Position numbers and translations under genes: made by a program
Shown here: piece after piece, positions 33,351 to 64,000 of the stretch
Position numbering within the stretch: position 1 is the stretch's first letter
Layout: each line of letters starts with the position of its first letter
Notes under the pieces: model-generated
What the model was told of the DNA's origin: nothing
What the model saw: only the letters and a program-made list of their open reading frames with translations
Databases searched by the model: none
Assembly: GCA_026874595.1 (NCBI GenBank)
Contig: CM049321.1
Coordinates: 11,569,479-11,633,478 of the forward strand
Source: Sipunculus nudus
Lineage: Eukaryota; Annelida; Sipuncula; Golfingiida; Sipunculidae
Direction of reading: 5' to 3'
Length of the DNA: 64,000 bases

Positions 33351-33385
33351 CCCTAGGGGTCATATTCGTGTGTATTTGTAGAAAA
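33351..33385 (+). repeat. B-like patch inside an A monomer
   Basis: An A monomer reads CGTCCCTAGGGGTCATATTC and then TATTTGTAGAAAAATG (B-like), before returning to A with TTTTCTCAATAAGC. Length is unchanged and CCCTAGGG keeps a palindrome. This looks like short-tract gene conversion. The same patch is present at about 46490 and 55863. Confidence 0.75.
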
Positions 33386-37812: not shown

Positions 37813-37825
37813 CTGTTCACTTAGC
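37790..37825 (+). repeat. Hybrid junction A to B2
   Basis: An A monomer beginning at 37764 switches after CCTTTATTTTTAGATT to the B2 text CCTGTTCACTTAGCGTCGC and later returns to A. The switch lies in TTTATTTTTAGATT, which A and B2 share. Copies are at about 50940 and 60313. Confidence 0.82.
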
Positions 37826-38516
37826 GTCGCTATTTTGTCGCCAAGGAACTTGTCTGCGTACCCATGGGTCATATTCGTGTGCATTTGTAGAAAAATGCTT
37901 CATTTCTGTGGTGTTTTCTCAATAAGCAAAGCATAATCAAAACGCAAGCAATTTTTAAGCAAAGAAACAATATCTTCATAAATTCTTTTTGCAACTTTTT
38001 TCTGAGGACATAATGAATTATTAGAGTTCCAGGGAGTCTAATCATGTCGGAAATAGTGGAAAATTGTAGATAAATTGGGAAAGAATTAAGAAAATGGGTC
38101 TCGAAATCGATATTGTGCTTTTTAGAAAATAGCAATATTTTATATTTCGACTTTTCTTTGAAAGATTTTGCCATTTTTATTTAGAATCCGGTTCACTAAG
38201 CGTCACTATTTTGTCGCCAAGAAACTTGTCTGCGTACCCATGGGTCATATTCGTGTTTATTTGTAGAAAAATGCTTCATTTCTGTGGTGTTTTCACCGTA
38301 AGCAAAGAATAAGCAAAGCGTAAGGAAGGTGTAAGCAAAGGAACTACATCTTCATAAATTCTTTTTGTGAATATTGTTTCAAGACATAATGTATTAGTTG
38401 ACTAACTAGGAGCCTAATTATATCGGAAACGTTGCAAAACAGTAGATCAAATGAGAAAAAATTAAAAAAATGGGTCCCTATAATCCATAATATCTCTTAT
38501 TGGAAATAGCAGATTG

Positions 38517-41500
38517 TTACATTTCTAATATTGATTGAACGATTGTGCCCTTTATTTTTAGATTAATGTTCACTAGGAGGCACCATTGTGTAGCCAGGGA
38601 ATTGGTCTGCGTCCCTACGGGACATATTCGTGTGTATTTTTTGAAAAATGCTTCATTTTTGTGGTGTTTTCTCAATAAGCAAAGCATCAGCAAAACGCAA
38701 GAAAATTGTAAGCAAAGGAACAATGTCTTCTTAAATTCTTTTTGCGACTATTTTCTGAGGACATAATGTATTATTAGGCTTCCAGGGAGTCTAATCATGT
38801 CGGAAATAGTGGAAAATTGTAGATAAATTGGGAAAGAAATCAGAGAATGGGTCTCGAAATCGATATTATCCCTTTAAGAAAATAGCAATATTTTATGTTT
38901 CCACATTTTATTGAAAGATTTTGCTATTTTTATTTAGAATCCGGTTCACTAAGCGTCACTATTTTGTCGCCAAGAAACTTGTCTGCGTACCCATGGGTCA
39001 TATTCGTGTTTATTTGTAGAAAAATGCTTCATTTCTGTGGTGTTTTCACCGTAAGCAAAGAATAAGCAAAGCGAAGGGAAAGTATAAGCAGAGGAACTAC
39101 ATCTTCATAAATTCTTTTTGTGAATATTTTCTCAAGACATAATGTATTAGTTGACTAACCAGGAGCCTAATTTTATCGGAAACGGTGCAAAACAGTACAT
39201 CAAATGAGAAAAAATTTAAAAAATGGGTCACTATGATCCATAATATCTCTTATTGGAAATAGCAGTCTTTTACATTTCTAATATTGATTGAACGATTGTG
39301 CCCTTTATTTTTAGATTAATGTTCACTAGGAGGCACCATTGTGTAGCAAGGGAATTCGTCTGTATCCCTACGGGACATATACGTGTGTATTTTTTGAAAA
39401 ATGCTTCATTTCTGTGGTGTTTTCTCAATAAGCAAAGCATAAGCAAAACGCAAGCAAATTGTAAGCAAAGGAAAAATGTCTTCATGAATTCTTTTTGCGA
39501 CTATTTTCTGAGGATATAATTTATTATTAGGGTTCCAGGGAGTCTAATCGTATCGGAAATAGTAGAAAAATGGTAGATAAATTTGGAAAGAAATAAGGGA
39601 ATGGGTCTCGAATTTAATATTATCCCTTTCATAAAATAGTAATATTTCATAATTTTACATTTTATTGAAAGATTTTGCCTTTTATTTTTAGATTCCTGTT
39701 CACTTAGCGTCGCTATTTTGTCGCCAAGGAACTTGTCTGCGTATCCATGGGTCATATTCGTGTGTATTTGTAGAAAAATGCTTCATTTCTGTGGTGTTTT
39801 CTCAATAAGCAAAGCATAAGCAAAACGCAAGCAATTCTTAAGCAAAGAAACAATATCTTCATAAATTCTGTTTGCGACTAATTTCTGAGGACATAATGAA
39901 TTATTAGGGTTCCAGGGAGTCTAATCATGTCGGAAATAGTGGAAAATTGTAGATTAATTGGGAAACAATTAAGAAAATGGGTCTCGAAATCGATATTGTG
40001 CTTTTTAGAAAATAGCAATATTTTATATTTCGACTTTTTATTGAAAGATTTTGCCATTTTTATTTAGAATCCGGTTCACTAAGCGTCACTAATTTGTCGC
40101 CAAGAAACTTGTCAGCGTACCCATGGGTCATATTCGTGTGTATTTGTAGAAAAATGATTCATTTCTGTGGTGTTTTCACCGTAAGCAAAGAATAAGCAAA
40201 ACGTAAGCAAATTGTAAGCAAAGGAACAATGTCTTCATAAATTCTTTTTGTAAATATTTTCTAGAGACATAATATATTATTTGACTAACCCGGAGCCTAA
40301 TTATATCGGAAACGGTGCAAAACAGTAGATCAATTGATAAAAAATTTAAAAAATGGCTCCCTATAATCCCTAACATCTCTTATTGGAAATAGCAGTCTTT
40401 TACATTTCTAATATTGATTGAACGATTGTGCCCTTTATTTTTAGATTAATGTTCACTAGGAGGCACCATTGTGTAGCCAGGGAATTAGTCTGCGTCCCTA
40501 CGGGACATATTCGTGTGTATTTTTTGAAAAATGCTTCATTTTCGTGGTGTTTTCTCAATAAGCAAAGCATCAGCAAAACGCAAGAAAATTGTAAACAAAG
40601 GAACAATGTCTTCTTAAATTCTTTTTGCGACTATTTTCTGAGGACATAATGTATTATTAGGCTTCTAGGGAGTCTAATCATGTCGAAAATAGTGGAAAAT
40701 TGTAGATAAATTGGGAAAGAAATCAGAGAATGGGTCTCGAAATCGATATTATCCCTTTAAGAAAATAGCAATATTTTATATTTCGACATTTTATTGAAAG
40801 ATTTTGCCATTTTTATTTAGAATCCGGTTCACTAAGCGTCACTATTTTGTCGCCAAGAAACTTGTCTGCGTACCCATGGATCATATTCGTGTGTATTTGT
40901 AGAAAAATGCTTCATTTCTGTGGTGTTTTCACCGTAAGCAAAGAATAAGCAAAGGGTAGGGAAAGTGTAAGCAAAGGAACTACATCTTCATAAATTCTTT
41001 TTGTGAATATTTTCTCAGGACATAATGTATTAGTTGACTAACCAGGAGCCTAATTTTATCGGAAACGGTGCAAAACAGTAGATCAAATGAGAAAAAATTT
41101 AAAAAATGGGTCACTATGATCCATAATATCTCTTATTGGAAATAGCAGTCTTTTACATTTCTAATATTGATTGAACGATTGTGCCCTTTATTTTTAGATT
41201 AATGTTCACTAGGAGGCACCATTGTGTAGCAAGGGAATTAGTCTGCGTCCCTACGGGACATATACGTGTGTATTTTTTTTAAAAATGCTTCATTTCTGTG
41301 GTGTTTTCTCAATAAGCAAAGCATAAGCAAAACGCAAGCAAATTGTAAGCAAAGGAAAAATGTCTTCATGAATTCTTTTTGCGACTATTTTCTGAGGATA
41401 TAATGTATTATTAGGGTTCCAGGGAGTCTAATCGTATCGGAAATAGTGGAAAATTGTAGATAAATTTGGAAAGAAATAAGGGAATGGGTCTCGAATTTAA

Positions 41501-41830: not shown

Positions 41831-43270
41831 TGTAGATAAATTGGGAAAGAATTAAGAAAATGGGTCTCGAATTTAATATTATCGCTTTCATAAAATAGTA
41901 ATATTTCATATTTTTACATTTTATTGAAAGATTTTGCCTTTTATATTTAGAATCCGGTTCACTAAGCGTCACTATTTTGTCGCCAAGAAACTTGTCTGTG
42001 TACCCATGGGTCATATTCGTGTGTATTTGTAGAAAAATGCTTCATTTCTGTGGTGTTTTCACCGTAATCAAAGAATAAGCAAAGCGTAAGGAAAGTGTAA
42101 GCAAAGGAACTACATCTTCATAAATTCTTTTTGTGAATATTTTCTCAAGACATAATGTATAAGTTGACTAACCAGGAGCCTAATTATATCGGAAACGGTG
42201 CAAAACAGTAGATCAAATGAGAAAAAATTAAAATATGGGTCCCTATAATCCATAATATCTCTTATTGGAAATAGCAGTCTTTTACATTTCTAATATTGAT
42301 TGAACGATTGTTCCCTTTATTTTTAGGTTAATGTTCACTAGGAAAAACCATTGTGTAGGAAGGGAATTAGTCTGCGTCACTTCGGGACATATTCGTGTGT
42401 ATTTTCTGAAAAATGCTTCATTTCTGTGGTGTTTTCTCAATAAGCAAAGCATAAGCAAAGCGCAAGCAAATTGTAAGCAAAGGAACAATGTCTTCTTAAA
42501 TTCTTTTTGCGACTATTTTCTGAGGACATAATGTATTATTAGGGTTCCAGGGAGTCTAATCGTGTCGGAAATAGTAGAAAATTGTAGATAAATTGGGAAA
42601 GAAATAAGAAAACGGGTCTCGAAATCGATATTGTCCCTTTTAGAAAATAGCAATATTTTATATTTCGACTTTTTATTGAAAGGTTTTGCCACTATTATTT
42701 AGAATCCGGTTCACTAAGCGTCACTATTTTGTCGCAAAGAAATTTGTCTGCGTACCCATGGATCATATTCGTGTGTATTTGTAGAAAAATTCTTCATTTC
42801 TGTGGTGTTTTCACCGTAAGCAAAGAATAAGCAAAGCGTTAAGAAAGTGTAAGCAAAGGAACTACATCTTCATAAATTCTTTTTGTGAATATTTTCTCAA
42901 GACATAATGTATTAGTTGACTAACCAGGAGCCTAATTATGTCGGAAACGGTGCAAAACAGTAGATCAATTGAGAAAAAAATTAAAAAAAGGGTCCCTATA
43001 ATCCCTAACATCTCTTATTGGAAATAGCAATCTTGTACATTTCTAATATTGATTGAACGATTGTGTCCTTTATTTTTAGATTAATGTTCACTAGGAGGCA
43101 CCATTGTGTAGCCAGGGAATTAGTCTGCGTCCCTACGGGACATATACGTGTGTACTTTTTGAAAAATGCTTCATTTCTGTGGTGTTTTCTCAATAAGCAA
43201 AGCATAAGTAAAACGCAAGCAAATTGTAAGCAAAGGAAAAATGTCTTCATGAATTCTTTTTGCGACTATT
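39507..43270. repeat. Unit gamma (about 3.8 kb)
   Basis: Follows beta-0 and matches 62017-64000 at an offset of 22,510 bp for as far as the window reaches. It starts at a marker TAATTTATTATTAGGG (about 39518), includes a B3 monomer (about 40.02-40.38 kb), and an A3 dimer at 41.79-42.53 kb whose marks ATCGCTTTC and GGAAAAACC match 30.54-31.17 kb. From about 42.78 kb it becomes B1 with GCGTTAAGAAAG, like the 3-kb repeats. It is therefore a patchwork of pieces seen elsewhere. Confidence 0.86.
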
Positions 43271-44319
43271 TTCTGAGGATATAATGTATTATTAGGGTTC
43301 TAGGGAGTCTAATCGTATCGGAAATAGTGGAAAATTGTAGATAAATTGGGAAAGAAATAAGGGAATGGGTCTCGAATTTAATATTATCCCTTTCATAAAA
43401 TAGTAATATTTCATATTTTTACATTTTATTGAAAGATTTTGCCTTTTATTTTTAGATTCGTGTTCACTTAGCGTCACTATTTTGTCGCCAAAGAACTTGT
43501 CTGCGTACCCATGGGTCATATTCGTGTGTATTTGTATAAAATTCTTCATTTCTGTGGTGTTTTCTCAATAAGCAAAGCAAAAGTAAAACGCAAGCAATTT
43601 TAAAGCAAAGAAACAATATCTTCATAAATTCTTTTTCGACTATTTTCTGAGGACATAATGAATTATTAGGGTTCCAGCGAGTCTAATCATGTCGGAAATA
43701 GTGGAAAATTGTAGATCAAAGAGACAAAAATAAAAAAATGGGTCCCTATAATCCATAATATCTCTTATTGGATATAGCAGTCTTTTACATTTCTCATATT
43801 GATTGAACGATTTTGCCCTTTATTTTTAGATAAATGTTCACTAGGAGGCACCATTGTGTAGCAAGGGAATTAGTCTGTGTCCCTACGGGACATATTTGTT
43901 TGTTTTTGTAGAAAAATGCTTCATTTCTGTGGTGTTTTCTCAATAAGCAAAGCATAAGCAAAACGCAAGCAATTTTTAAGCAAAGAAACAAGATCTTCAT
44001 AAATTCTTTTTGCGACTATTTTCTGAAGACTTAATGAATTATTAGGGTTCCAGGGAGTCTAATCATGTCGGAAATAGCGGAAAATTGTAGATAAACTGGG
44101 AAAGAATTAAGAAAATGGGTCTCGAAATCGATATTGTCCCTTTTAGAAAATAGCAATATTTTATATTTCGACTATTTATTGAAAGATTTTGCCATTTTTA
44201 TTTAGAATCCGGTTCACTAAGCGTCACTATTTTGTCGCCAAGAACTTGTCTGCGTGCCCATGGGTCATATTCGTGTGTATTTGTAGAAAAATGCTTCATT
44301 TCTGTGGTGTTTTCACCGT
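43271..44319. repeat. Unit Z, copy 1
   Basis: About 1.05 kb that precedes beta-1 and, 9,373 bp later, beta-2. It includes B2 with a GATTCGTGTTCAC variant, a mosaic monomer ending at 43784, and an A monomer from 43785 with TTGTTTGTTTTTG. From 43716 onward, and on into beta-1 to about 44925, it matches 26470-27680 in alpha-2 at an offset of about 17,244 bp, so beta and alpha share this ancestor. Confidence 0.85.
43705..43722 (+). repeat. Mosaic junction A to B inside unit Z
   Basis: GGAAAATTGTAGAT of an A tail passes directly into CAAAGAGACAAAAATAAAA of a B tail. The shared GTAGAT is the likely exchange point. The monomer started as B2 near 43410, so it is B2, A and B in turn, yet keeps normal length (about 375 bp). 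The same junction is at 53078-53095. Confidence 0.83.
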
Positions 44320-47300
44320 AAGCAAAGAATAAGCAAAGGAACTACATCTTCATCAATTCTTTTTGTGAATTTTTTCTCAAGACATAATGTATTAGTTGAC
44401 TAACCAGGAGCCTAATTATACCGAAAACGGTGCAAAACAGTAGATCAAATGAGAAAAAATTAAAAAATGGGTCCCTATAATCCATAATATCTCTTATTGG
44501 AAATAGCAGTCTTTTACATTTCTAATATTGATTGAACGATTGTGCCCTTTATTTTTAGATTAATGTTGACTAGGAGGAACCATTGTGTAGCCAGGGAATT
44601 AGTCTGCGTCCCTACGGGACACATTCGTGTGTATTTTTTTAAAAAAGCTTCATTTCTGTGATGTTTTCTCAATAAGCAAGGCATAAGCAAAACACAAGCA
44701 ATTTGTAGGCAAAGAAACAATATCTTCATAAATTCTTTTTGCGACTATTTTCTGAGGACATAATGTATAATTAGGGTTCCAGGGAGTCTAATCATGTCGG
44801 AAATAGTGGAAAATTGTAGATAAATTGGGAAAGAATTAAGAAAATGGGTCTCGAATTTAATATTATCCCTTTCATAAAATAGTAATATTTCATATTTTTA
44901 CATTTTATTGAAAGATTTTGCCTTTTATTTTTAGATTCCTGTTCACTTAGCGTCGCTATTTTGTCGCCAAGGAACTTGTCTGCGTACCCATGGGTCATAT
45001 TCGTGTGTATTTGTATAAAATTCTTCATTTCTGTGGTGTTTTCTCAATAAGCAAAGCAAAAGTAAAACGCAAGCAATTTTAAAGCAAAAAAACAATATCT
45101 TCATAAATTCTTTTTCGACTATTTTCTGAGGACATAATGAATTATTAGGGTTCCAGCGAGTCTAATCATGTCGGAAATAGTGGAAAATTGTAGATAAATT
45201 GGGAAAGAATTAAGAAAATGGGTCTCGAATTTAATATTATCCCTTTCATAAAATAGTAATTATTCATATTTTTACATTTTATTGAAAGATTTTGCCTTTT
45301 ATATTTAGAATCCGGTTCACTAAGCGTCACTATTTTGTCGCCAAGAAACTTGTCTGTGTACCCATGGGTCATATTCGTGTGTATTTGTAGAAAAATGCTT
45401 CATTTCTGTGGTGTTTTCTCAATAAGCAAAGAATAAGCAAAGCGTAAGCAAATTGTAAGCAAAGGAACTACATCTTCATAAATTCTTTTTGTAAATATTT
45501 TCTAGAGACATAATGTATAAGTTGACTAACCAGGAGCCTAATTATATCGGAAACGGTGCAAAACAGTAGATCAAATGAGAAAAAAAATTAAAATATGGGT
45601 CCCTATAATCCATAATATCTCTTATTGGAAATATCAGTCTTTTAGATTTCTAATATTGATTGAACGATTGTGCCCTTTATTTTTAGGTTAATGTTCACTA
45701 GGACAAACCATTGTGTAGGAAGGGAATTAGTCTGCGTCACTTCGGGACATATTCGTGTGTATTTTCTGAAAAATGCTTCATTTCTGTGGTGTTTTCTCAA
45801 TAAGCAAAGCATAAGCAAAGCGCAAGCAAATTGTAAGCAAAGGAACAATGTCTTCTTAAATTCTTTTTGCGACTATTTTCTGAGGACATAATGTATTATT
45901 AGGGTTCCAGGGAGTCTAATCATGTCGGAAATAGTAGAAAATTGTAGATAAATTGGGAAAGAATTAAGAAAATGGGTCTCGAAATCGATATTGTCCCTTT
46001 TAGAAAATAGCAATATTTTATATTTCGACTTTTTATTGAAAGATTTTGCCATTATTATTTAGAATCCGGTTCACTAAGCGTCACTATTTTGTCGCCAAGA
46101 AACTTGTCTGCGTACCCATGGGTCATATTCGTGTGTATTTGCAGAAAAATGCTTCATTTCTGTGGTGTTTCCACCGTAAGCAAAGAATAAGCAAAACGTA
46201 AGCAAATTGTAAGCAAAGGAACAATGTCTTCATAAATTCTTTTTGTAAATATTTTCTCAAGACATAATGTATTAGTTGACTAACCAGGAGCCTAATTATA
46301 TCGGAAACGTTGCAAAACAGTAGATCAAATGAGAAAAAATAAAAAATGGGTCCCTATAATCCATAATATCTCTTATTGAAAATAGCAGACTGTTACATTT
46401 CTAATATTGATTGAACGATTGTGCCCTTTATTTTTAGATTAATGTTCACTAGGAGGCACCATTGTGTAGCCAGGGAATTAGTCTGCGTCCCTAGGGGTCA
46501 TATTCGTGTGTATTTGTAGAAAAATGTTTCATTTCTGTGGTGTTTTCTCAATAAGCACAGCATAAGCAAAACGCAAGCAATTTTTAAGCAAAGAAACAAT
46601 ATCTTCATAAATTCTTTTTGCGACTATTTTCTGAGGACATAATGAATTATAAGGGCTCCAGGGAGTCTAATCATGTCGGAAATAGTGGAAAATTGTAGAT
46701 AAATTGGGAAAGAATTAAGAAAATGGGTCTCGAAATCGATATTGTCCCTTTTAGAAAATAGCAATATTTTATATTTCGACATTTTATTGAAAGAATTTGC
46801 CATTTATATTTAGAATCCGGTTCACTAAGCGTCACTATTTTGTCGCCAAGAAACTTGTCTGCGTACCCATGGGTCATATTCGTGTTTATTTGTAGAAAAA
46901 TGCTTCATTTCTGTGGTGTTTTCACCGTAAGCAAAGAATAAGTAAAACGTAAGGAAATTGTAAGCAAAGGAACTACATCTTCATAAATTCTTTTTGTGAA
47001 TATTTTCTCGAGACATAATGTATAAGTTGACTAGCCAGGAGCCTAATTATATCGGAAACGGTGCAAAACAGTAGATCAAATGAGAAAAAATTAAAAAATG
47101 GCTCCCTATAATCCCTAACCTCTCTTATTGGAAATAGCAGTCTTTTACATTTCTAATATTGATTGAACGATTGTTCTCTTTACTTTTAGATTAATGTTCA
47201 CTAGGAGGCACCAATGTGTAGAAAGAGAATTAATCTGCATCCCTACGGGACATATTCGTGTGTATTTTTTGAAAATGCTTCATTTCTGTGGTGTTTTCCC

Positions 47301-50300
47301 AATAAGCAAAGCATAAGCAAAACGCAAGCAAATTGTAAGCAAAAGAAAAATGTCTTCATAAATTCTTTTTGCGACTTTTTTCTGAGGACATAATGAATTA
47401 TTAGGGTTCCAGGGAGTCTAATCATGTCGGAAATAGTGGAAAATTGTAGATAAATTGGGAAAGATATAAGAAAATGGGTCTCGAATTTAATATTATCCCT
47501 TTCAGAAAATAGTAATATTTCATATTTTTACATTTTATTGAAAGATTTTGCCTTTTATTTTTAGATTCCTGTTCACTTAGCGTCGCTATTTTGTCGCCAA
47601 GGAACTTGTCTGCGTACCCATGGGTCATATTCGTGTGCATTTGTAGAAAAATGCTTCATTTCTGTGGTGTTTTCTCAATAAGCCAAGCATAAGCAAAACG
47701 CAAGCAATTTTTAAGCAAAGAAACAATATCTTCATAAATTCTTTTTGCGACTATTTTCTGAGGACATAATGAATTATGAGGGCTCCAGGGAGTCTAATCA
47801 TGTCGGAAATAGTGGAAAATTGTAGATAAATTTGGAAAGAATTAAGAAAATGGGTCTCGAAATCGATATTGTCCCTTTTAGAAAATAGCAATATTTTATA
47901 TTTCGAATTTTTATTGAAAGATTTTGCCATTTTTATTTATAATCCGGTTCACTGTGCGTCACTATTTTGAAACCAAGAAACTTGTCTGCGTACCCATGGG
48001 TCATATTCGTGTGTATTTGTAGAAAAATGCTTCATTTCTGTGGTGTTTTCACCGTAAGCAAAGAATAAGCAAAGCGTAAGGAAAGTGTAAGCAAAGGAAC
48101 TACATCTTCATAAATTCTTTTTGCGACTATTTTCTGAGGACATAATGAATTATGAGGGCTCCAGGGAGTCTAATCATGTCGGAAATAGTGGAAAATTGTA
48201 GATAAATTTGGAAAGAATTAAGAAAATGGGTCTCGAAATCGATATTGTTCCTTTTAGAAAATAGCAATATTTTATATTTCGAATTTTTATTGAAAGATTT
48301 TGCCATTTTTATTTATAATCCGGTTCACTCTGCGTCACTATTTTGAAACCAAGAAACTTGTCTGCGTACCCATGGGTCATATTCGTGTGTATTTGTAGAA
48401 AAATGCTTCATTTCTGTGGTGTTTTCACCGTAAGCAAAGAATAAGCAAAGCGTAAGGAAAGTGTAAGCAAAGGAACTACATCTTCATAAATTCTTTTTGT
48501 GAATATTTTCTCAAGACATAATGTATAAGTTGACTAACCAGGAGCATAATTATATCGGAAACGGTGCAAAACAGTAGTTCAAATGAGAAAAAATAAAAAA
48601 AAATGGCTCCCTATAATCCCTAACCTCTCTTATTGGAAATAGCAGTCTTTTACATTTCTAATATTGATTGAACGATTGTTCTCTTTACTTTTAGATTAAT
48701 GTTCACTAGGAGGCACCATTGTGTAGGAAGAGAATTAGTCTGCATCCCGACGGGATATATTTGTGTGTATTTTTTGAAAATGCTTCATTTCTGTGGTGTT
48801 TTCTCAATAAGCAAAGCATAAGCAAAACGCAAGCAAATTGTAAGCAAAAGAAAAATGTCTTCATAAATTCTTTTTGCGACTATTTTCTGAGGATATAATG
48901 TATTATTAGGGTTCCAGGGAGTCTAATCGTATCGGAAATAGTAGAAAATTGTAGATAAATTGGGAAAGAAATAAGAAAATGGGTCTCGAATTTAATATTA
49001 ACCCTTTCATAAAATAGTAATATTTCATATTTTTACATTTTATTGAAAGATTTTGCCTTTTACTTTTAAATTCTTGTTCACTTAGCGTCGCTATTTTGTC
49101 GCCAAGGAACTTGTCTGCGTACCTATGGGTCATATTCGTGTGTTTTTGTAGAAAAATGCTTCATTTCTGTGGTGTTTTCACCGTAAGCAAAGAATAAGCA
49201 AAGCGTAAGGAAAGTGTAAGCAAAGGAACTACATCTTCATAAATTCTTTTTGTGAATATTTTCTCAAGACATAATGTAATAGATGACTAACCAGGAGCCT
49301 TATTATATCGGAAAGGTGCAAAACAGTAGATCAATTGAGAAAAAATTAAAAAATGGGTCCCTATAATCCATAATATCTCTTATTGGATATAGCAGTCTTT
49401 TACATTTCTCATATTGATTGAACGATTGTGCCCTTTATTTTTAGATTAATGTTCACTAGGAGGCACCATTGTGTAGCAAGGGAAATAGTCTGCGTCCCTA
49501 CGGAACATATTTGTTTGTTTTTGTTGAAAAATGCTTCATTTCTGTGGTGTTTTCTCAATAAGCAAAGCAAAAGTAAAACGCAAGCAATTTTTAAGCAAAG
49601 AAACAATATCTTCATAAATTCTTTTTGCAACTATTTTCTGAGGACATTATGAATTATTAGGGTTCCAGGGAGTCTAATCATGTCGGAAACAGTGGAAAAT
49701 TGTAGATAAATTTGGAAAGAATTAAGAAAATGGGTCTCGAAATCGATATTGTATCTTTTAGAAAATAGTAATATTTTATATTTCGACATTTTATTGAAAG
49801 ATTTTGCCATTTTTATTTATAATCCGGTTCACTGTGCGTCACTATTTTGTCACCAAGAAACTTGTCGGCGTACCCATGGGTCATATTCGTGTGTATTTGT
49901 AGAAAAATGCTTCATTTCTGTGGTGTTTTCACCGTAAGCAAAGAATAAGCAAAGCGTAAGGAAAGTGTAAGCAAAGGAACTACATCTTCATAAATTCTTT
50001 TTGTGAAAATTTTCTCAAGACATAATGTATAAGTTGACTAACCAGGAGCCTAATTATATCGGAAACGGTGCAAAACAGTAGATCAAATGAGAAAAAATAA
50101 AAAAATGGCTCCCTATAATCCCTAACCTCTCTTATTGGAAATAGCAGTCTTTTACATTTCTAATATTGATTGAACGATTGTTCTCTTTACTTTTAGATTA
50201 ATGTTCACTAGGAGGCACCATTGTGTAGGAAGAGAATTAGTCTGCATCCCTACGGGCTATATTTGTGTGTATTTTTTGAAAATGCTTCATTTCTGTGGTG

Positions 50301-52643
50301 TTTTCTCAATAAGCAAAGCATAAGCAAAACGCAAGCAAATTGTAAGCAAAAGAAAAATGTCTTCATAAATTCTTTTTGCGACTATTTTCTGAGGATATAA
50401 TGTATTATTAGGGTTCCAGGGAGTCTAATCGTATCGGAAATAGTAGAAAATTGTAGATAAATTGGGAAAGAAATAAGAAAATGGGTCTCGAATTTAATAT
50501 TAACCCTTTCATAAAATAGTAATATTTCATATTTTTACATTTTATTGAAAGATTTTGCCTTTTACTTTTAAATTCTTGTTCACTTAGGGTCGCTATTTTG
50601 TCGCCAAGGAACTTTTCTGCGTACCTATGGGTCATATTCGTGTGTTTTTGTAGAAAAATGCTTCATTTCTGTGGTGTTTTCACCGTAAGCAAAGAATAAG
50701 GAAAGCGTAAGGAAAGTGTAAGCAAAGGAACTACATCTTCATAAATTCTTTTTGTGAATATTTTCTCAAGACATAATGTAATAGATGACTAACCAGGAGC
50801 CTAATTATATCGGAAAGGTGCAAAACAGTAGATCAAATGAGAAAAAATTAAAAAATGGGTCCCTATAATCCATAATATCTCTTATTGGATATAGCAGTCT
50901 TTTACATTTCTCATATTGATTGAACGATTGTGCCCTTTATTTTTAGATTCCTGTTCACTTAGCGTCGCTATTTTGTCGCCAAGGAACTTGTCTGCGTACC
51001 CATGGGTCATATTCGTGTGCATTTGTAGAAAAATGCTTCATTTCTGTGGTGTTTTCTCAATAAGCAAAGCATAATCAAAACGCAAGCAATTTTTAAGCAA
51101 AGAAACAATATCTTCATAAATTCTTTTTGCAACTTTTTTCTGAGGACATAATGAATTATTAGGGTTCCAGGGAGTCTAATCATGTCGGAAATAGTGGAAA
51201 ATTGTAGATAAATTGGGAAAGAATTAAGAAAATGGGTCTCGAAATCGATATTGTGCTTTTTAGAAAATAGCAATATTTTATATTTCGACTTTTCTTTGAA
51301 AGATTTTGCCATTTTTATTTAGAATCCGGTTCACTAAGCGTCACTATTTTGTCGCCAAGAAACTTGTCTGCGTACCCATGGGTCATATTCGTGTTTATTT
51401 GTAGAAAAATGCTTCATTTCTGTGGTGTTTTCACCGTAAGCAAAGAATAAGCAAAGCGTAAGGAAGGTGTAAGCAAAGGAACTACATCTTCATAAATTCT
51501 TTTTGTGAATATTGTTTCAAGACATAATGTATTAGTTGACTAACTAGGACCCTAATTATATCGGAAACGTTGCAAAACAGTAGATCAAATGAGAAAAAAT
51601 TAAAAAAATGGGTCCCTATAATCCATAATATCTCTTATTGGAAATAGCAGATTGTTACATTTCTAATATTGATTGAACGATTGTGCCCTTTATTTTTAGA
51701 TTAATGTTCACTAGGAGGCACCATTGTGTAGCCAGGGAATTGGTCTGCGTCCCTACGGGACATATTCGTGTGTATTTTTTGAAAAATGCTTCATTTTTGT
51801 GGTGTTTTCTCAATAAGCAAAGCATCAGCAAAACGCAAGAAAATTGTAAGCAAAGGAACAATGTCTTCTTAAATTCTTTTTGCGACTATTTTCTGAGGAC
51901 ATAATGTATTATTAGGCTTCCAGGGAGTCTAATCATGTCGGAAATAGTGGAAAATTGTAGATAAATTGGGAAAGAAATCAGAGAATGGGTCTCGAAATCG
52001 ATATTATCCCTTTAAGAAAATAGCAATATTTTATGTTTCGACATTTTATTGAAAGATTTTGCCATTTTTATTTAGAATCCGGTTCACTAAGCGTCACTAT
52101 TTTGTCGCCAAGAAACTTGTCTGCGTACCCATGGGTCATATTCGTGTTTATTTGTAGAAAAATGCTTCATTTCTGTGGTGTTTTCACCGTAAGCAAAGAA
52201 TAAGCAAAGCGAAGGGAAAGTATAAGCAGAGGAACTACATCTTCATAAATTCTTTTTGTGAATATTTTCTCAAGACATAATGTATTAGTTGACTAACCAG
52301 GAGCCTAATTTTATCGGAAACGGTGCAAAACAGTACATCAAATGAGAAAAAATTTAAAAAATGGGTCACTATGATCCATAATATCTCTTATTGGAAATAG
52401 CAGTCTTTTACATTTCTAATATTGATTGAACGATTGTGCCCTTTATTTTTAGATTAATGTTCACTAGGAGGCACCATTGTGTAGCCAGGGAATTAGTCTG
52501 CATCCCTACGGGACATATACGTGTGTATTTTTTGAAAAATGCTTCATTTCTGTGGTGTTTTCTCAATAAGCAAAGCATAAGCAAAACGCAAGCAAATTGT
52601 AAGCAAAGGAAAAATGTCTTCATGAATTCTTTTTGCGACTATT
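44320..52643. repeat. Unit beta-1
   Basis: Together with Z copy 1 this makes the first 9,373-bp tandem unit. It carries the beta landmarks: A3 tag at 45740, conversion patch near 46490, doubled monomer near 47735-48486, four-monomer repeat 48138-50950, A/B2 switch near 50940. Differences from beta-0 (for example CACTCTGCGTC at about 48329, GTCGGCG at about 49864 and GGACCC at about 51548) are shared with beta-2. Confidence 0.94.
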
Positions 52644-53692
52644 TTCTGAGGATATAATGTATTATTAGGGTTCTAGGGAGTCTAATCGTATCGGAAATAG
52701 TGGAAAATTGTAGATAAATTGGGAAAGAAATAAGGGAATGGGTCTCGAATTTAATATTATCCCTTTCATAAAATAGTAATATTTCATATTTTTACATTTT
52801 ATTGAAAGATTTTGCCTTTTATTTTTAGATTCGTGTTCACTTAGCGTCACTATTTTGTCGCCAAAGAACTTGTCTGCGTACCCATGGGTCATATTCGTGT
52901 GTATTTGTATAAAATTCTTCATTTCTGTGGTGTTTTCTCAATAAGCAAAGCAAAAGTAAAACGCAAGCAATTTTAAAGCAAAGAAACAATATCTTCATAA
53001 ATTCTTTTTCGACTATTTTCTGAGGACATAATGAATTATTAGGGTTCCAGCGAGTCTAATCATGTCGGAAATAGTGGAAAATTGTAGATCAAAGAGACAA
53101 AAATAAAAAAATGGGTCCCTATAATCCATAATATCTCTTATTGGATATAGCAGTCTTTTACATTTCTCATATTGATTGAACGATTTTGCCCTTTATTTTT
53201 AGATAAATGTTCACTAGGAGGCACCATTGTGTAGCAAGGGAATTAGTCTGTGTCCCTACGGGACATATTTGTTTGTTTTTGTAGAAAAATGCTTCATTTC
53301 TGTGGTGTTTTCTCAATAAGCAAAGCATAAGCAAAACGCAAGCAATTTTTAAGCAAAGAAACAAGATCTTCATAAATTCTTTTTGCGACTATTTTCTGAA
53401 GACTTAATGAATTATTAGGGTTCCAGGGAGTCTAATCATGTCGGAAATAGCGGAAAATTGTAGATAAACTGGGAAAGAATTAAGAAAATGGGTCTCGAAA
53501 TCGATATTGTCCCTTTTAGAAAATAGCAATATTTTATATTTCGACTATTTATTGAAAGATTTTGCCATTTTTATTTAGAATCCGGTTCACTAAGCGTCAC
53601 TATTTTGTCGCCAAGAACTTGTCTGCGTGCCCATGGGTCATATTCGTGTGTATTTGTAGAAAAATGCTTCATTTCTGTGGTGTTTTCACCGT
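52644..53692. repeat. Unit Z, copy 2
   Basis: Second copy of Z at an offset of 9,373 bp, with the same mosaic junction at about 53078-53095 and the same TTGTTTGTTTTTG A monomer from 53158. I saw no difference from Z copy 1 in the stretches compared. Confidence 0.92.
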
Positions 53693-56600
53693 AAGCAAAG
53701 AATAAGCAAAGGAACTACATCTTCATCAATTCTTTTTGTGAATTTTTTCTCAAGACATAATGTATTAGTTGACTAACCAGGAGCCTAATTATACCGAAAA
53801 CGGTGCAAAACAGTAGATCAAATGAGAAAAAATTAAAAAATGGGTCCCTATAATCCATAATATCTCTTATTGGAAATAGCAGTCTTTTACATTTCTAATA
53901 TTGATTGAACGATTGTGCCCTTTATTTTTAGATTAATGTTGACTAGGAGGAACCATTGTGTAGCCAGGGAATTAGTCTGCGTCCCTACGGGACACATTCG
54001 TGTGTATTTTTTTAAAAAAGCTTCATTTCTGTGATGTTTTCTCAATAAGCAAGGCATAAGCAAAACACAAGCAATTTGTAGGCAAAGAAACAATATCTTC
54101 ATAAATTCTTTTTGCGACTATTTTCTGAGGACATAATGTATAATTAGGGTTCCAGGGAGTCTAATCATGTCGGAAATAGTGGAAAATTGTAGATAAATTG
54201 GGAAAGAATTAAGAAAATGGGTCTCGAATTTAATATTATCCCTTTCATAAAATAGTAATATTTCATATTTTTACATTTTATTGAAAGATTTTGCCTTTTA
54301 TTTTTAGATTCCTGTTCACTTAGCGTCGCTATTTTGTCGCCAAGGAACTTGTCTGCGTACCCATGGGTCATATTCGTGTGTATTTGTATAAAATTCTTCA
54401 TTTCTGTGGTGTTTTCTCAATAAGCAAAGCAAAAGTAAAACGCAAGCAATTTTAAAGCAAAAAAACAATATCTTCATAAATTCTTTTTCGACTATTTTCT
54501 GAGGACATAATGAATTATTAGGGTTCCAGCGAGTCTAATCATGTCGGAAATAGTGGAAAATTGTAGATAAATTGGGAAAGAATTAAGAAAATGGGTCTCG
54601 AATTTAATATTATCCCTTTCATAAAATAGTAATTATTCATATTTTTACATTTTATTGAAAGATTTTGCCTTTTATATTTAGAATCCGGTTCACTAAGCGT
54701 CACTATTTTGTCGCCAAGAAACTTGTCTGTGTACCCATGGGTCATATTCGTGTGTATTTGTAGAAAAATGCTTCATTTCTGTGGTGTTTTCTCAATAAGC
54801 AAAGAATAAGCAAAGCGTAAGCAAATTGTAAGCAAAGGAACTACATCTTCATAAATTCTTTTTGTAAATATTTTCTAGAGACATAATGTATAAGTTGACT
54901 AACCAGGAGCCTAATTATATCGGAAACGGTGCAAAACAGTAGATCAAATGAGAAAAAAAATTAAAATATGGGTCCCTATAATCCATAATATCTCTTATTG
55001 GAAATATCAGTCTTTTAGATTTCTAATATTGATTGAACGATTGTGCCCTTTATTTTTAGGTTAATGTTCACTAGGACAAACCATTGTGTAGGAAGGGAAT
55101 TAGTCTGCGTCACTTCGGGACATATTCGTGTGTATTTTCTGAAAAATGCTTCATTTCTGTGGTGTTTTCTCAATAAGCAAAGCATAAGCAAAGCGCAAGC
55201 AAATTGTAAGCAAAGGAACAATGTCTTCTTAAATTCTTTTTGCGACTATTTTCTGAGGACATAATGTATTATTAGGGTTCCAGGGAGTCTAATCATGTCG
55301 GAAATAGTAGAAAATTGTAGATAAATTGGGAAAGAATTAAGAAAATGGGTCTCGAAATCGATATTGTCCCTTTTAGAAAATAGCAATATTTTATATTTCG
55401 ACTTTTTATTGAAAGATTTTGCCATTATTATTTAGAATCCGGTTCACTAAGCGTCACTATTTTGTCGCCAAGAAACTTGTCTGCGTACCCATGGGTCATA
55501 TTCGTGTGTATTTGCAGAAAAATGCTTCATTTCTGTGGTGTTTCCACCGTAAGCAAAGAATAAGCAAAACGTAAGCAAATTGTAAGCAAAGGAACAATGT
55601 CTTCATAAATTCTTTTTGTAAATATTTTCTCAAGACATAATGTATTAGTTGACTAACCAGGAGCCTAATTATATCGGAAACGTTGCAAAACAGTAGATCA
55701 AATGAGAAAAAATAAAAAATGGGTCCCTATAATCCATAATATCTCTTATTGAAAATAGCAGACTGTTACATTTCTAATATTGATTGAACGATTGTGCCCT
55801 TTATTTTTAGATTAATGTTCACTAGGAGGCACCATTGTGTAGCCAGGGAATTAGTCTGCGTCCCTAGGGGTCATATTCGTGTGTATTTGTAGAAAAATGT
55901 TTCATTTCTGTGGTGTTTTCTCAATAAGCACAGCATAAGCAAAACGCAAGCAATTTTTAAGCAAAGAAACAATATCTTCATAAATTCTTTTTGCGACTAT
56001 TTTCTGAGGACATAATGAATTATAAGGGCTCCAGGGAGTCTAATCATGTCGGAAATAGTGGAAAATTGTAGATAAATTGGGAAAGAATTAAGAAAATGGG
56101 TCTCGAAATCGATATTGTCCCTTTTAGAAAATAGCAATATTTTATATTTCGACATTTTATTGAAAGAATTTGCCATTTATATTTAGAATCCGGTTCACTA
56201 AGCGTCACTATTTTGTCGCCAAGAAACTTGTCTGCGTACCCATGGGTCATATTCGTGTTTATTTGTAGAAAAATGCTTCATTTCTGTGGTGTTTTCACCG
56301 TAAGCAAAGAATAAGTAAAACGTAAGGAAATTGTAAGCAAAGGAACTACATCTTCATAAATTCTTTTTGTGAATATTTTCTCGAGACATAATGTATAAGT
56401 TGACTAGCCAGGAGCCTAATTATATCGGAAACGGTGCAAAACAGTAGATCAAATGAGAAAAAATTAAAAAATGGCTCCCTATAATCCCTAACCTCTCTTA
56501 TTGGAAATAGCAGTCTTTTACATTTCTAATATTGATTGAACGATTGTTCTCTTTACTTTTAGATTAATGTTCACTAGGAGGCACCAATGTGTAGAAAGAG

Positions 56601-59600
56601 AATTAATCTGCATCCCTACGGGACATATTCGTGTGTATTTTTTGAAAATGCTTCATTTCTGTGGTGTTTTCCCAATAAGCAAAGCATAAGCAAAACGCAA
56701 GCAAATTGTAAGCAAAAGAAAAATGTCTTCATAAATTCTTTTTGCGACTTTTTTCTGAGGACATAATGAATTATTAGGGTTCCAGGGAGTCTAATCATGT
56801 CGGAAATAGTGGAAAATTGTAGATAAATTGGGAAAGATATAAGAAAATGGGTCTCGAATTTAATATTATCCCTTTCAGAAAATAGTAATATTTCATATTT
56901 TTACATTTTATTGAAAGATTTTGCCTTTTATTTTTAGATTCCTGTTCACTTAGCGTCGCTATTTTGTCGCCAAGGAACTTGTCTGCGTACCCATGGGTCA
57001 TATTCGTGTGCATTTGTAGAAAAATGCTTCATTTCTGTGGTGTTTTCTCAATAAGCCAAGCATAAGCAAAACGCAAGCAATTTTTAAGCAAAGAAACAAT
57101 ATCTTCATAAATTCTTTTTGCGACTATTTTCTGAGGACATAATGAATTATGAGGGCTCCAGGGAGTCTAATCATGTCGGAAATAGTGGAAAATTGTAGAT
57201 AAATTTGGAAAGAATTAAGAAAATGGGTCTCGAAATCGATATTGTCCCTTTTAGAAAATAGCAATATTTTATATTTCGAATTTTTATTGAAAGATTTTGC
57301 CATTTTTATTTATAATCCGGTTCACTGTGCGTCACTATTTTGAAACCAAGAAACTTGTCTGCGTACCCATGGGTCATATTCGTGTGTATTTGTAGAAAAA
57401 TGCTTCATTTCTGTGGTGTTTTCACCGTAAGCAAAGAATAAGCAAAGCGTAAGGAAAGTGTAAGCAAAGGAACTACATCTTCATAAATTCTTTTTGCGAC
57501 TATTTTCTGAGGACATAATGAATTATGAGGGCTCCAGGGAGTCTAATCATGTCGGAAATAGTGGAAAATTGTAGATAAATTTGGAAAGAATTAAGAAAAT
57601 GGGTCTCGAAATCGATATTGTTCCTTTTAGAAAATAGCAATATTTTATATTTCGAATTTTTATTGAAAGATTTTGCCATTTTTATTTATAATCCGGTTCA
57701 CTCTGCGTCACTATTTTGAAACCAAGAAACTTGTCTGCGTACCCATGGGTCATATTCGTGTGTATTTGTAGAAAAATGCTTCATTTCTGTGGTGTTTTCA
57801 CCGTAAGCAAAGAATAAGCAAAGCGTAAGGAAAGTGTAAGCAAAGGAACTACATCTTCATAAATTCTTTTTGTGAATATTTTCTCAAGACATAATGTATA
57901 AGTTGACTAACCAGGAGCATAATTATATCGGAAACGGTGCAAAACAGTAGTTCAAATGAGAAAAAATAAAAAAAAATGGCTCCCTATAATCCCTAACCTC
58001 TCTTATTGGAAATAGCAGTCTTTTACATTTCTAATATTGATTGAACGATTGTTCTCTTTACTTTTAGATTAATGTTCACTAGGAGGCACCATTGTGTAGG
58101 AAGAGAATTAGTCTGCATCCCGACGGGATATATTTGTGTGTATTTTTTGAAAATGCTTCATTTCTGTGGTGTTTTCTCAATAAGCAAAGCATAAGCAAAA
58201 CGCAAGCAAATTGTAAGCAAAAGAAAAATGTCTTCATAAATTCTTTTTGCGACTATTTTCTGAGGATATAATGTATTATTAGGGTTCCAGGGAGTCTAAT
58301 CGTATCGGAAATAGTAGAAAATTGTAGATAAATTGGGAAAGAAATAAGAAAATGGGTCTCGAATTTAATATTAACCCTTTCATAAAATAGTAATATTTCA
58401 TATTTTTACATTTTATTGAAAGATTTTGCCTTTTACTTTTAAATTCTTGTTCACTTAGCGTCGCTATTTTGTCGCCAAGGAACTTGTCTGCGTACCTATG
58501 GGTCATATTCGTGTGTTTTTGTAGAAAAATGCTTCATTTCTGTGGTGTTTTCACCGTAAGCAAAGAATAAGCAAAGCGTAAGGAAAGTGTAAGCAAAGGA
58601 ACTACATCTTCATAAATTCTTTTTGTGAATATTTTCTCAAGACATAATGTAATAGATGACTAACCAGGAGCCTTATTATATCGGAAAGGTGCAAAACAGT
58701 AGATCAATTGAGAAAAAATTAAAAAATGGGTCCCTATAATCCATAATATCTCTTATTGGATATAGCAGTCTTTTACATTTCTCATATTGATTGAACGATT
58801 GTGCCCTTTATTTTTAGATTAATGTTCACTAGGAGGCACCATTGTGTAGCAAGGGAAATAGTCTGCGTCCCTACGGAACATATTTGTTTGTTTTTGTTGA
58901 AAAATGCTTCATTTCTGTGGTGTTTTCTCAATAAGCAAAGCAAAAGTAAAACGCAAGCAATTTTTAAGCAAAGAAACAATATCTTCATAAATTCTTTTTG
59001 CAACTATTTTCTGAGGACATTATGAATTATTAGGGTTCCAGGGAGTCTAATCATGTCGGAAACAGTGGAAAATTGTAGATAAATTTGGAAAGAATTAAGA
59101 AAATGGGTCTCGAAATCGATATTGTATCTTTTAGAAAATAGTAATATTTTATATTTCGACATTTTATTGAAAGATTTTGCCATTTTTATTTATAATCCGG
59201 TTCACTGTGCGTCACTATTTTGTCACCAAGAAACTTGTCGGCGTACCCATGGGTCATATTCGTGTGTATTTGTAGAAAAATGCTTCATTTCTGTGGTGTT
59301 TTCACCGTAAGCAAAGAATAAGCAAAGCGTAAGGAAAGTGTAAGCAAAGGAACTACATCTTCATAAATTCTTTTTGTGAAAATTTTCTCAAGACATAATG
59401 TATAAGTTGACTAACCAGGAGCCTAATTATATCGGAAACGGTGCAAAACAGTAGATCAAATGAGAAAAAATAAAAAAATGGCTCCCTATAATCCCTAACC
59501 TCTCTTATTGGAAATAGCAGTCTTTTACATTTCTAATATTGATTGAACGATTGTTCTCTTTACTTTTAGATTAATGTTCACTAGGAGGCACCATTGTGTA

Positions 59601-62016
59601 GGAAGAGAATTAGTCTGCATCCCTACGGGCTATATTTGTGTGTATTTTTTGAAAATGCTTCATTTCTGTGGTGTTTTCTCAATAAGCAAAGCATAAGCAA
59701 AACGCAAGCAAATTGTAAGCAAAAGAAAAATGTCTTCATAAATTCTTTTTGCGACTATTTTCTGAGGATATAATGTATTATTAGGGTTCCAGGGAGTCTA
59801 ATCGTATCGGAAATAGTAGAAAATTGTAGATAAATTGGGAAAGAAATAAGAAAATGGGTCTCGAATTTAATATTAACCCTTTCATAAAATAGTAATATTT
59901 CATATTTTTACATTTTATTGAAAGATTTTGCCTTTTACTTTTAAATTCTTGTTCACTTAGGGTCGCTATTTTGTCGCCAAGGAACTTTTCTGCGTACCTA
60001 TGGGTCATATTCGTGTGTTTTTGTAGAAAAATGCTTCATTTCTGTGGTGTTTTCACCGTAAGCAAAGAATAAGGAAAGCGTAAGGAAAGTGTAAGCAAAG
60101 GAACTACATCTTCATAAATTCTTTTTGTGAATATTTTCTCAAGACATAATGTAATAGATGACTAACCAGGAGCCTAATTATATCGGAAAGGTGCAAAACA
60201 GTAGATCAAATGAGAAAAAATTAAAAAATGGGTCCCTATAATCCATAATATCTCTTATTGGATATAGCAGTCTTTTACATTTCTCATATTGATTGAACGA
60301 TTGTGCCCTTTATTTTTAGATTCCTGTTCACTTAGCGTCGCTATTTTGTCGCCAAGGAACTTGTCTGCGTACCCATGGGTCATATTCGTGTGCATTTGTA
60401 GAAAAATGCTTCATTTCTGTGGTGTTTTCTCAATAAGCAAAGCATAATCAAAACGCAAGCAATTTTTAAGCAAAGAAACAATATCTTCATAAATTCTTTT
60501 TGCAACTTTTTTCTGAGGACATAATGAATTATTAGGGTTCCAGGGAGTCTAATCATGTCGGAAATAGTGGAAAATTGTAGATAAATTGGGAAAGAATTAA
60601 GAAAATGGGTCTCGAAATCGATATTGTGCTTTTTAGAAAATAGCAATATTTTATATTTCGACTTTTCTTTGAAAGATTTTGCCATTTTTATTTAGAATCC
60701 GGTTCACTAAGCGTCACTATTTTGTCGCCAAGAAACTTGTCTGCGTACCCATGGGTCATATTCGTGTTTATTTGTAGAAAAATGCTTCATTTCTGTGGTG
60801 TTTTCACCGTAAGCAAAGAATAAGCAAAGCGTAAGGAAGGTGTAAGCAAAGGAACTACATCTTCATAAATTCTTTTTGTGAATATTGTTTCAAGACATAA
60901 TGTATTAGTTGACTAACTAGGACCCTAATTATATCGGAAACGTTGCAAAACAGTAGATCAAATGAGAAAAAATTAAAAAAATGGGTCCCTATAATCCATA
61001 ATATCTCTTATTGGAAATAGCAGATTGTTACATTTCTAATATTGATTGAACGATTGTGCCCTTTATTTTTAGATTAATGTTCACTAGGAGGCACCATTGT
61101 GTAGCCAGGGAATTGGTCTGCGTCCCTACGGGACATATTCGTGTGTATTTTTTGAAAAATGCTTCATTTTTGTGGTGTTTTCTCAATAAGCAAAGCATCA
61201 GCAAAACGCAAGAAAATTGTAAGCAAAGGAACAATGTCTTCTTAAATTCTTTTTGCGACTATTTTCTGAGGACATAATGTATTATTAGGCTTCCAGGGAG
61301 TCTAATCATGTCGGAAATAGTGGAAAATTGTAGATAAATTGGGAAAGAAATCAGAGAATGGGTCTCGAAATCGATATTATCCCTTTAAGAAAATAGCAAT
61401 ATTTTATGTTTCGACATTTTATTGAAAGATTTTGCCATTTTTATTTAGAATCCGGTTCACTAAGCGTCACTATTTTGTCGCCAAGAAACTTGTCTGCGTA
61501 CCCATGGGTCATATTCGTGTTTATTTGTAGAAAAATGCTTCATTTCTGTGGTGTTTTCACCGTAAGCAAAGAATAAGCAAAGCGAAGGGAAAGTATAAGC
61601 AGAGGAACTACATCTTCATAAATTCTTTTTGTGAATATTTTCTCAAGACATAATGTATTAGTTGACTAACCAGGAGCCTAATTTTATCGGAAACGGTGCA
61701 AAACAGTACATCAAATGAGAAAAAATTTAAAAAATGGGTCACTATGATCCATAATATCTCTTATTGGAAATAGCAGTCTTTTACATTTCTAATATTGATT
61801 GAACGATTGTGCCCTTTATTTTTAGATTAATGTTCACTAGGAGGCACCATTGTGTAGCCAGGGAATTAGTCTGCATCCCTACGGGACATATACGTGTGTA
61901 TTTTTTGAAAAATGCTTCATTTCTGTGGTGTTTTCTCAATAAGCAAAGCATAAGCAAAACGCAAGCAAATTGTAAGCAAAGGAAAAATGTCTTCATGAAT
62001 TCTTTTTGCGACTATT
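53693..62016. repeat. Unit beta-2
   Basis: Copy of beta-1 at an offset of 9,373 bp. All the beta-1-specific changes checked are present (GTTCC at about 57621, GTCGGCG at about 59237, GGACCC at about 60921, and the eight-base A-run near 54951). At its right end the sequence leaves the Z path and joins gamma-like sequence (TAATTTATTATTAGGG near 62029), as at the end of beta-0. Confidence 0.94.
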
Positions 62017-64000
62017 TTCTGAGGATATAATTTATTATTAGGGTTCCAGGGAGTCTAATCGTATCGGAAATAGTGGAAAATTGTAGATAAATTTGGAAAG
62101 AAATAAGGGAATGGGTCTCGAATTTAATATTATCGCTTTCATAAAATAGTAATATTTCATAATTTTACATTTTATTGAAAGATTTTGCCTTTTATTTTTA
62201 GATTCCTGTTCACTTAGCGTCGCTATTTTGTCGCCAAGGAACTTGTCTGCGTATCCATCGGTCATATTCGTGTGTATTTGTAGAAAAATGCTTCATTTCT
62301 GTGGTGTTTTCTCAATAAGCAAAGCATAAGCAAAACGCAAGCAATTCTTAAGCAAAGAAACAATATCTTCATAAATTCTGTTTGCGACTAATTTCTGAGG
62401 ACATAATGAATTATTAGGGTTCCAGGGAGTCTAATCATGTCGGAAATAGTGGAAAATTGTAGATAAATTGGGAAACAATTAAGAAAATGGGTCTCGAAAT
62501 CGATATTGTCCCTTTTAGAAAATAGCAATATTTTATATTTCGACTTTTTATTGAAAGATTTTGCCATTTTTATTTAGAATCCGGTTCACTAAGCGTCACT
62601 AATTTGTCGCCAAGAAACTTGTCAGCGTACCCATGGGTCATATTCGTGTGTATTTGTAGAAAAATGATTCATTTCTGTGGTGTTTTCACCGTAAGCAAAG
62701 AATAAGCAAAACGTAAGCAAATTGTAAGCAAAGGAACAATGTCTTCATAAATTCTTTTTGTAAATATTTTCTAGAGACATAATATATTATTTGACTAACC
62801 CGGAGCCTAATTATATCGGAAACAGTGCAAAACAGTAGATCAATTGATAAAAAATTTAAAAAATGGCTCCCTATAATCCCTAACATCTCTTATTGGAAAT
62901 AGCAGTCTTTTACATTTCTAATATTGATTGAACGATTGTGCCCTTTATTTTTAGATTAATGTTCACTAGGAGGCACCATTGTGTAGCCAGGGAATTAGTC
63001 TGCGTCCCTACGGGACATATTCGTGTGTATTTTTTGAAAAATGCTTCATTTTTGTGGTGTTTTCTCAATAAGCAAAGCATCAGCAAAACGCAAGAAAATT
63101 GTAAACAAAGGAACAATGTCTTCTTAAATTCTTTTTGCGACTATTTTCTGAGGACATAATGTATTATTAGGCTTCTAGGGAGTCTAATCATGTCGAAAAT
63201 AGTGGAAAATTGTAGATAAATTGGGAAAGAAATCAGAGAATGGGTCTCGAAATCGATATTATCCCTTTAAGAAAATAGCAATATTTTATATTTCGACATT
63301 TTATTGAAAGATTTTGCCATTTTTATTTAGAATCCGGTTCACTAAGCGTCACTATTTTGTCGCCAAGAAACTTGTCTGCGTACCCATGGATCATATTCGT
63401 GTGTATTTGTAGAAAAATGCTTCATTTCTGTGGTGTTTTCACCGTAAGCAAAGAATAAGCAAAGCGTAGGGAAAGTGTAAGCAAAGGAACTACATCTTCA
63501 TAAATTCTTTTTGTGAATATTTTCTCAGGACATAATGTATTAGTTGACTAACCAGGAGCCTAATTTTATCGGAAACGGTGCAAAACAGTAGATCAAATGA
63601 GAAAAAATTAAAAAAATGGGTCACTATGATCCATAATATCTCTTATTGGAAATAGCAGTCTTTTACATTTCTAATATTGATTGAACGATTGTGCCCTTTA
63701 TTTTTAGATTAATGTTCACTAGGAGGCACCATTGTGTAGCAAGGGAATTAGTCTGCGTCCCTACGGGACATATACGTGTGTATTTTTTTTAAAAATGCTT
63801 CATTTCTGTGGTGTTTTCTCAATAAGCAAAGCATAAGCAAAACGCAAGCAAATTGTAAGCAAAGGAAAAATGTCTTCATGAATTCTTTTTGCGACTATTT
63901 TCTGAGGATATAATGTATTATTAGGGTTCCAGGGAGTCTAATCGTATCGGAAATAGTGGAAAATTGTAGATAAATTTGGAAAGAAATAAGGGAATGGGTC
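62017..64000. repeat. Unit gamma, second copy, cut by the window end
   Basis: Matches 39507-41490 at an offset of 22,510 bp to the last base. Differences include ATCGCTTTC near 62133 (against ATCCCTTTC), GAAACAGTGC at about 62819 (against GAAACGGTGC), and CCATCGGTC near 62257. The rest of gamma presumably continues beyond the window. Confidence 0.92.

Follow-up and report, generated by a model that had tools for sequence, protein, structure and literature searches.

An exact 9,373-bp tandem duplication in a satellite array of Sipunculus nudus, probably produced by a single unequal homologous exchange

The stretch of Sipunculus nudus DNA analysed here (64,000 bp, hereafter the window) contains a block of 9,373 bp that stands twice in direct succession without a single difference. 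Judged from the arrangement of the sequence, this repeat probably arose through a single, very recent event of unequal homologous exchange within the satellite array in which it lies. Like several others in the array, the duplication looks like a recent copying accident, and accidents of this kind are how satellite DNA ordinarily grows. Positions without a contig name are those of the window (position 1 is its first letter); the same scale is continued beyond the window end where indicated.

The window was placed on contig C16 (63.5 Mb) at 11,569,479-11,633,478, in an assembly of 1.43 Gb and 153 contigs. It consisted throughout of one uninterrupted satellite array, for which TRF gave a period of 376 and 170.9 copies:

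1-64000, unstranded: ~376-bp satellite array with types A and B mostly alternating in one orientation (TRF, monomer cutting, nhmmer)

A total of 171 monomers were cut from the window, 98 of type A and 73 of type B, with a mean divergence of 0.10 and 0.07 within types and 0.25 between types. The GC content of the satellite was 32-34%, and no minus-strand monomer match was found by nhmmer in the 194-kb joined stretch. The array on C16 extends from ~C16:11,567,394 to ~11,906,185, or about 339 kb; 186 kb of it was read continuously, and C16:11,753,479-11,900,599 (~147 kb) was sampled at five places, all of which contained satellite. C16 thus carries what defines satellite DNA, monomers of a single family repeated head to tail over a long distance, with the ~147 kb covered by samples. 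Monomers were closer within than between arrays, as in locus-wise homogenisation: the best identity to the window was 93-98% in six of seven samples from inside the C16 array (87% in the seventh, at 11,780,000), 84-85% in two C13 pieces, and 78-79% in two C10 pieces. A search of the window for CENP-B box-like motifs gave no match at one mismatch or fewer, with 4.5 expected by chance. Three monomer stretches were sought as printed sequence in the literature searched and gave no match, and the satellite may be described elsewhere; a 75-mer taken from the type-A consensus matched nowhere in an exact pattern search, a result that carries no information on the spread of the satellite.

Two blocks at a fixed 9,373-bp offset, free of indel shifts and with no substitution at the positions compared, had been described in a first-pass annotation, which proposed that their differences be counted by self-alignment. 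When this comparison was performed on 43271-52643 against 52644-62016, there were 0 mismatches in 9,373 bp and no indel, and the exact match proved even longer than described. At offset 9,373, exact identity was unbroken for at most 9,449 bp (43210-52658 against 52583-62031), the nearest flanking mismatches being at 43209 and 52659. With the limits set at the ends of this exact match, the two copies are as follows:

43210-52582, unstranded: first copy (U1), within the 9,449-bp exact run at offset 9,373
52583-61955, unstranded: second copy (U2), identical to U1

The period corresponds to 24.97 monomers (9,373/375.3), in agreement with the annotated figure of about 25 per block. Chance can be ruled out as the cause of the identity, since the average divergence is ~7-10% among monomers of one type and 25% between A and B. 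With no difference between U1 and U2 in 9,373 bp, the 95% upper limit of their divergence is 3.2e-4, about one fifth of the divergence from a third copy described below, which supports a very recent origin, one of the alternatives named in the annotation.

The exact match exceeds the period by 9,449 - 9,373 = 76 bp, which is below one monomer. The surroundings of this excess were delimited by the mismatches at 43209 and 52659, by monomer phase, and by setting the edge sequences side by side:

52583-52658, unstranded: 76-bp exchange tract, monomer positions 176-251
42230-43209, unstranded: left parental flank, in register with the unit end (97.0% identity over 200 bp, 94.5% over 400 and 800 bp)
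62032-62431, unstranded: right parental flank, in register with the unit start (96.5% identity over 200 bp, 95.2% over 400 bp)

The 76 bp at 52583-52658 are the same, letter for letter, at both outer edges and at the U1/U2 junction. At the junction, the base immediately left of the tract is that of the right edge and the base immediately right of it is that of the left edge. Beyond the ends of the match, identity at offset 9,373 stayed at ~94-97% for ~1 kb leftward and ~330 bp rightward and then dropped to background (ungapped comparison); mismatch was 3-3.5% in the first 200 bp on either side and ~5% over 400 bp. The 9,373-bp duplication therefore combines the three marks of an unequal homologous exchange, namely a match equal to the period plus a short tract, a whole number of monomers, and homologous edges in register.

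Unequal exchange is established in general theory as the engine of satellite arrays. At this locus, recombination would have taken place between two sites that were separated by 25 monomers, shared ~94-97% identity, and matched in monomer phase; the exchange would have fallen within the 76-bp stretch of identity and inserted one extra 25-monomer copy between the sites. A single unequal exchange at spacing P would be expected to leave an exact repeat of P plus the exchange tract, with the markers of each parent on opposite sides of the junction, and the observed arrangement agrees with this. The same process acting at other spacings most likely made the neighbouring 14.3-, 7.9-, 4.9-, and 3.4-kb duplications, and unequal exchange would be the way in which the C16 array grows and homogenises. 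As agent we infer sister-chromatid exchange, which is more likely, or break-induced replication, both of which leave the same product; template switching would leave the same junction as unequal exchange.

Hybrid monomers were identified among 496 classified monomers, 87 of them with a B-like start and an A-like end and 10 with the reverse arrangement. The B-to-A hybrids switched at monomer positions 125-155 in 62 cases, 207-228 in 14, and 105-123 in 8 (84 of 87 within 105-228), and the remaining three switched elsewhere or across a wider interval. Within the switch intervals A and B are identical and marker sites are accordingly absent, so that the places of switching follow from homology alone. 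The position of the B-to-A switches, in the part of the monomer with the greatest likeness between the types, shows that misaligned monomers have exchanged sequence under the guidance of homology earlier in this array. The number of separate hybrid events is probably small, several hybrids being alike at the marker sites. In the central core of the monomer (~105-250), which carries AAGCAAA-like short repeats, A and B are 80-95% alike per 20 columns, compared with 55-80% in most of the rest; the 9,373-bp exchange tract and the hybrid switches both lie in this core. That the core is a preferred exchange site, a recombination hotspot of its own that may drive whole-block copying in several arrays, is an unlikely proposition. 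Seven of the ten A-to-B hybrids sit from window-scale position 166429 on (C16 ~11.736 Mb), though the array continues for ~170 kb further; from the same position, divergence from the monomer consensus was 0.082-0.084, versus 0.045-0.062 in the preceding bins (leaving out the first, which lies at the edge of the array).

Further copies of the unit were found on both sides. A third copy, non-adjacent and ~26 kb downstream, lies at window-scale 88226-97598 (C16:11,657,704-11,667,076) and is 99.85% identical to the 9,373-bp unit, with 14 mismatches (of 9,372 positions compared) and 2 gap letters. An older partial copy lies upstream, at offset -13,138:

31504-41490, unstranded: older partial copy of the unit region (offset 13,138; compared with 44642-52582, 7,941 bp, it has 22 mismatches and 2 gap letters)

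The count of two copies in the first-pass annotation thus holds for the adjacent pair and is incomplete for the array.

Block repeats were scanned at all offsets of at least 300 bp in 194 kb, comprising 10 kb upstream, the window, and 120 kb downstream. The scan gave 34 exact runs of at least 1 kb, the four longest measuring 9,449 bp (offset 9,373), 5,910 bp (7,864), 5,897 bp (4,886), and 5,310 bp (14,264). Among the longest 40 of 2,017 chains, eight were tandem, their length reaching at least 0.9 of the offset. The 186 kb read contained five near-perfect tandem block duplications, with periods of 3,357 bp (8.94 monomers), 4,886 bp (13.02), 7,864 bp (20.95), 9,373 bp (24.97), and 14,264 bp (38.01). 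The copies differ by 0 substitutions at period 9,373, by 1 at 7,864, and by 3 at 3,357. At period 4,886 there are 0 differences in one placing of the unit, the other placing giving 17 and 4 between successive copies. Counted at fixed offset, the two 14,264-bp copies differ by a 1-bp offset shift and by 6 mismatches, all but one of which fall within 24 bp. With regard to age, the 9,373-bp duplication does not stand out: on these counts it is not evidently younger than the 7,864-bp or the 4,886-bp duplication. The 14,264-bp duplication (C16:11,629,263 onward) starts inside the second 9,373-bp copy:

59785-64000, unstranded: in-window part of the 14,264-period tandem duplication (core 59785-74052 on the window scale, extending beyond the window end)

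When the 14,264-, 7,864-, and 3,357-bp duplications are delimited by the outermost positions of their long exact runs, they exceed their periods by 4, 157, and 313 bp, respectively; with the 76 bp at 9,373, four of the five thus have an excess of under one monomer. In the 4,886-bp duplication the excess is 1,011 bp and the flanks are also nearly identical. The exact tract of the 14,264-bp duplication is only 4 bp long, and a gapped comparison is needed to bring out the likeness of its edges (~94% over 200 bp). Two older tandem duplications, among seven examined closely, have periods of 4,879 (29 mismatches) and 8,992 (199 mismatches); no edge homology was found for either at the edges tried by ungapped comparison. 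The features of the 14,264-bp case and of these two older ones count against the reading by unequal exchange. Additional copies from the five near-perfect duplications make up 44,630 of 186,085 bp, or ~24%, with the 4,886-bp unit, which stands about three times, counted twice (~21% if counted once). Other arrays of the family also contain block repeats: at the C16 end there is an offset of 11,129 with exact runs of up to 2,147 bp, and on C13 there are offsets of 9,100, 7,692, and others with exact runs of up to 2,205 bp. No exact repeat equal to the 9.4-kb one was found in the 24 kb sampled from the C16-end array and the 17 kb from C13.

The first-pass annotation had regarded the block as a very large higher-order repeat. 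For such a repeat, a true 25-monomer unit that is fixed and spreads as a unit, one can point to three copies within ~55 kb and to large higher-order repeats elsewhere, such as the 59mer of orangutan (PMC11276891). The copies, however, overlap duplications at offsets 13,138, 14,264, 35,643, and others, and nowhere in the stretch read does the 9,373 period run on past two adjacent copies. A higher-order repeat presents the same multi-monomer unit many times in a row; the 186 kb read, with ~147 kb more represented by samples, held two adjacent exact copies and one non-adjacent copy of 99.85% identity, among duplications of many other sizes. The designation is accordingly doubtful, and we consider a fixed higher-order repeat very unlikely. 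Active homogenisation had also been offered, and ongoing gene conversion could in principle hold two old neighbouring copies identical. The 99.85% identity of the copy ~26 kb away indicates that block-scale similarity is general in the array, and the five clustered mismatches of the six in the 14,264-bp pair look like one small conversion tract, both of which are compatible with conversion. Under conversion, the ends of the match should bear no relation to the period, whereas the observed match stops 76 bp past one period, where the parental sites are homologous, and 0 differences across 9,449 bp give way to 3-3.5% mismatch in the first 200 bp outside (~5% over 400 bp). Because the exact match equals the period plus 76 bp and conversion would not tie match length to period, a single exchange is preferred over homogenisation, to which we assign only a slim chance.

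Exact tandem repeats of ~9.4 kb are near the limit of resolution of the usual long accurate reads, and the array may truly contain one copy, or more than two, where the assembler wrote two. An artefact of this kind is improbable given what surrounds the repeat. What stands at the junction is a specific recombinant whose parental edges share just ~94-97% identity, and a false join would, from what is expected of assemblers, need a spurious overlap; the 14,264-, 7,864-, and 3,357-bp copies carry 6, 1, and 3 substitutions, so that similar structures were resolved; and there is no N anywhere in the 194 kb read. We therefore infer that the assembly is correct here, as the explanation by one unequal exchange presupposes, although the true copy number could differ from two or the haplotypes could differ.

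Relatives of the satellite were also observed elsewhere in the assembly. Among the matches listed, they lie near the ends of three contigs (C10:78.90-79.23 Mb, C13:70.79-70.92 Mb, and C16:63.37-63.44 Mb), unlike the internal C16 array, with further matches at no fewer than one place on C7 and at least three at C16:8.46 Mb. An origin of the internal array by telomere fusion was considered and found unsupported: no run of at least three units of TTAGGG, TTAGG, or TTTAGGG was present in either of the pieces examined (10 kb on the left, 9.4 kb on the right), but the last 1 kb of C13 and of C16 were equally without any, so that this negative result carries little weight. Separately, open frames for cytochrome oxidase subunit I with near-equal scores were observed on eight contigs (C60, C61, C62, C66, C72, C74, C75, and C89; the first three are loci L018, L019, and L020). 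The translated frame is 577 aa long, three fetched pieces have 37-38% GC, and the best 80 GTDB relatives are 52-58% identical. The 112-kb contig C123 (L021) carries an oxidase, which we take to be cbb3-like, in a piece of 52% GC. These bacterial-looking contigs probably belong to symbionts or to other organisms that accompany the host.

Under the reading by unequal exchange, the 9,373-bp duplication is a clean and fresh example of a long-known process. Single unequal exchanges are usually deduced from old, blurred traces, whereas several here are recent enough for both parental edges and the exchange tract (4-313 bp for four of them) to be read; the ~24% of 186 kb made up of young extra copies gives a measure of the share that recent copying can reach in an array of this kind. 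Higher-order repeats and block duplications of alpha-satellite at human and ape centromeres are likewise tandem arrays of diverged monomers with recent, near-perfect multi-monomer copies, and recent block amplification in centromeric arrays is already established (PMC11062924). Variation in alpha-satellite arrays is attributed in that source to unequal crossing over and saltatory amplification, and new higher-order repeats intermixed with old ones are taken to implicate more than simple unequal crossover (PMC11062924). The C16 array differs in its 376-bp monomer and in having no repeating higher-order register in the part read, and the resemblance, being one of sequence, implies no centromere role. 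The orangutan 59mer is of similar size (~10 kb, by our own multiplication of 59 x ~171 bp), but it is a named higher-order repeat unit, whereas the 25-monomer block is a two-copy duplication with one separate 99.85% copy (PMC11276891). The C16 array is known only as an end product in an assembly, whereas in ALT-positive human cells the gain of array segments was measured by ddPCR in a cell line; there too, segments are gained by homologous recombination, in the form of break-induced replication and within ~20 cell divisions, so that this route of array growth has experimental support in human cells (PMC11034957).
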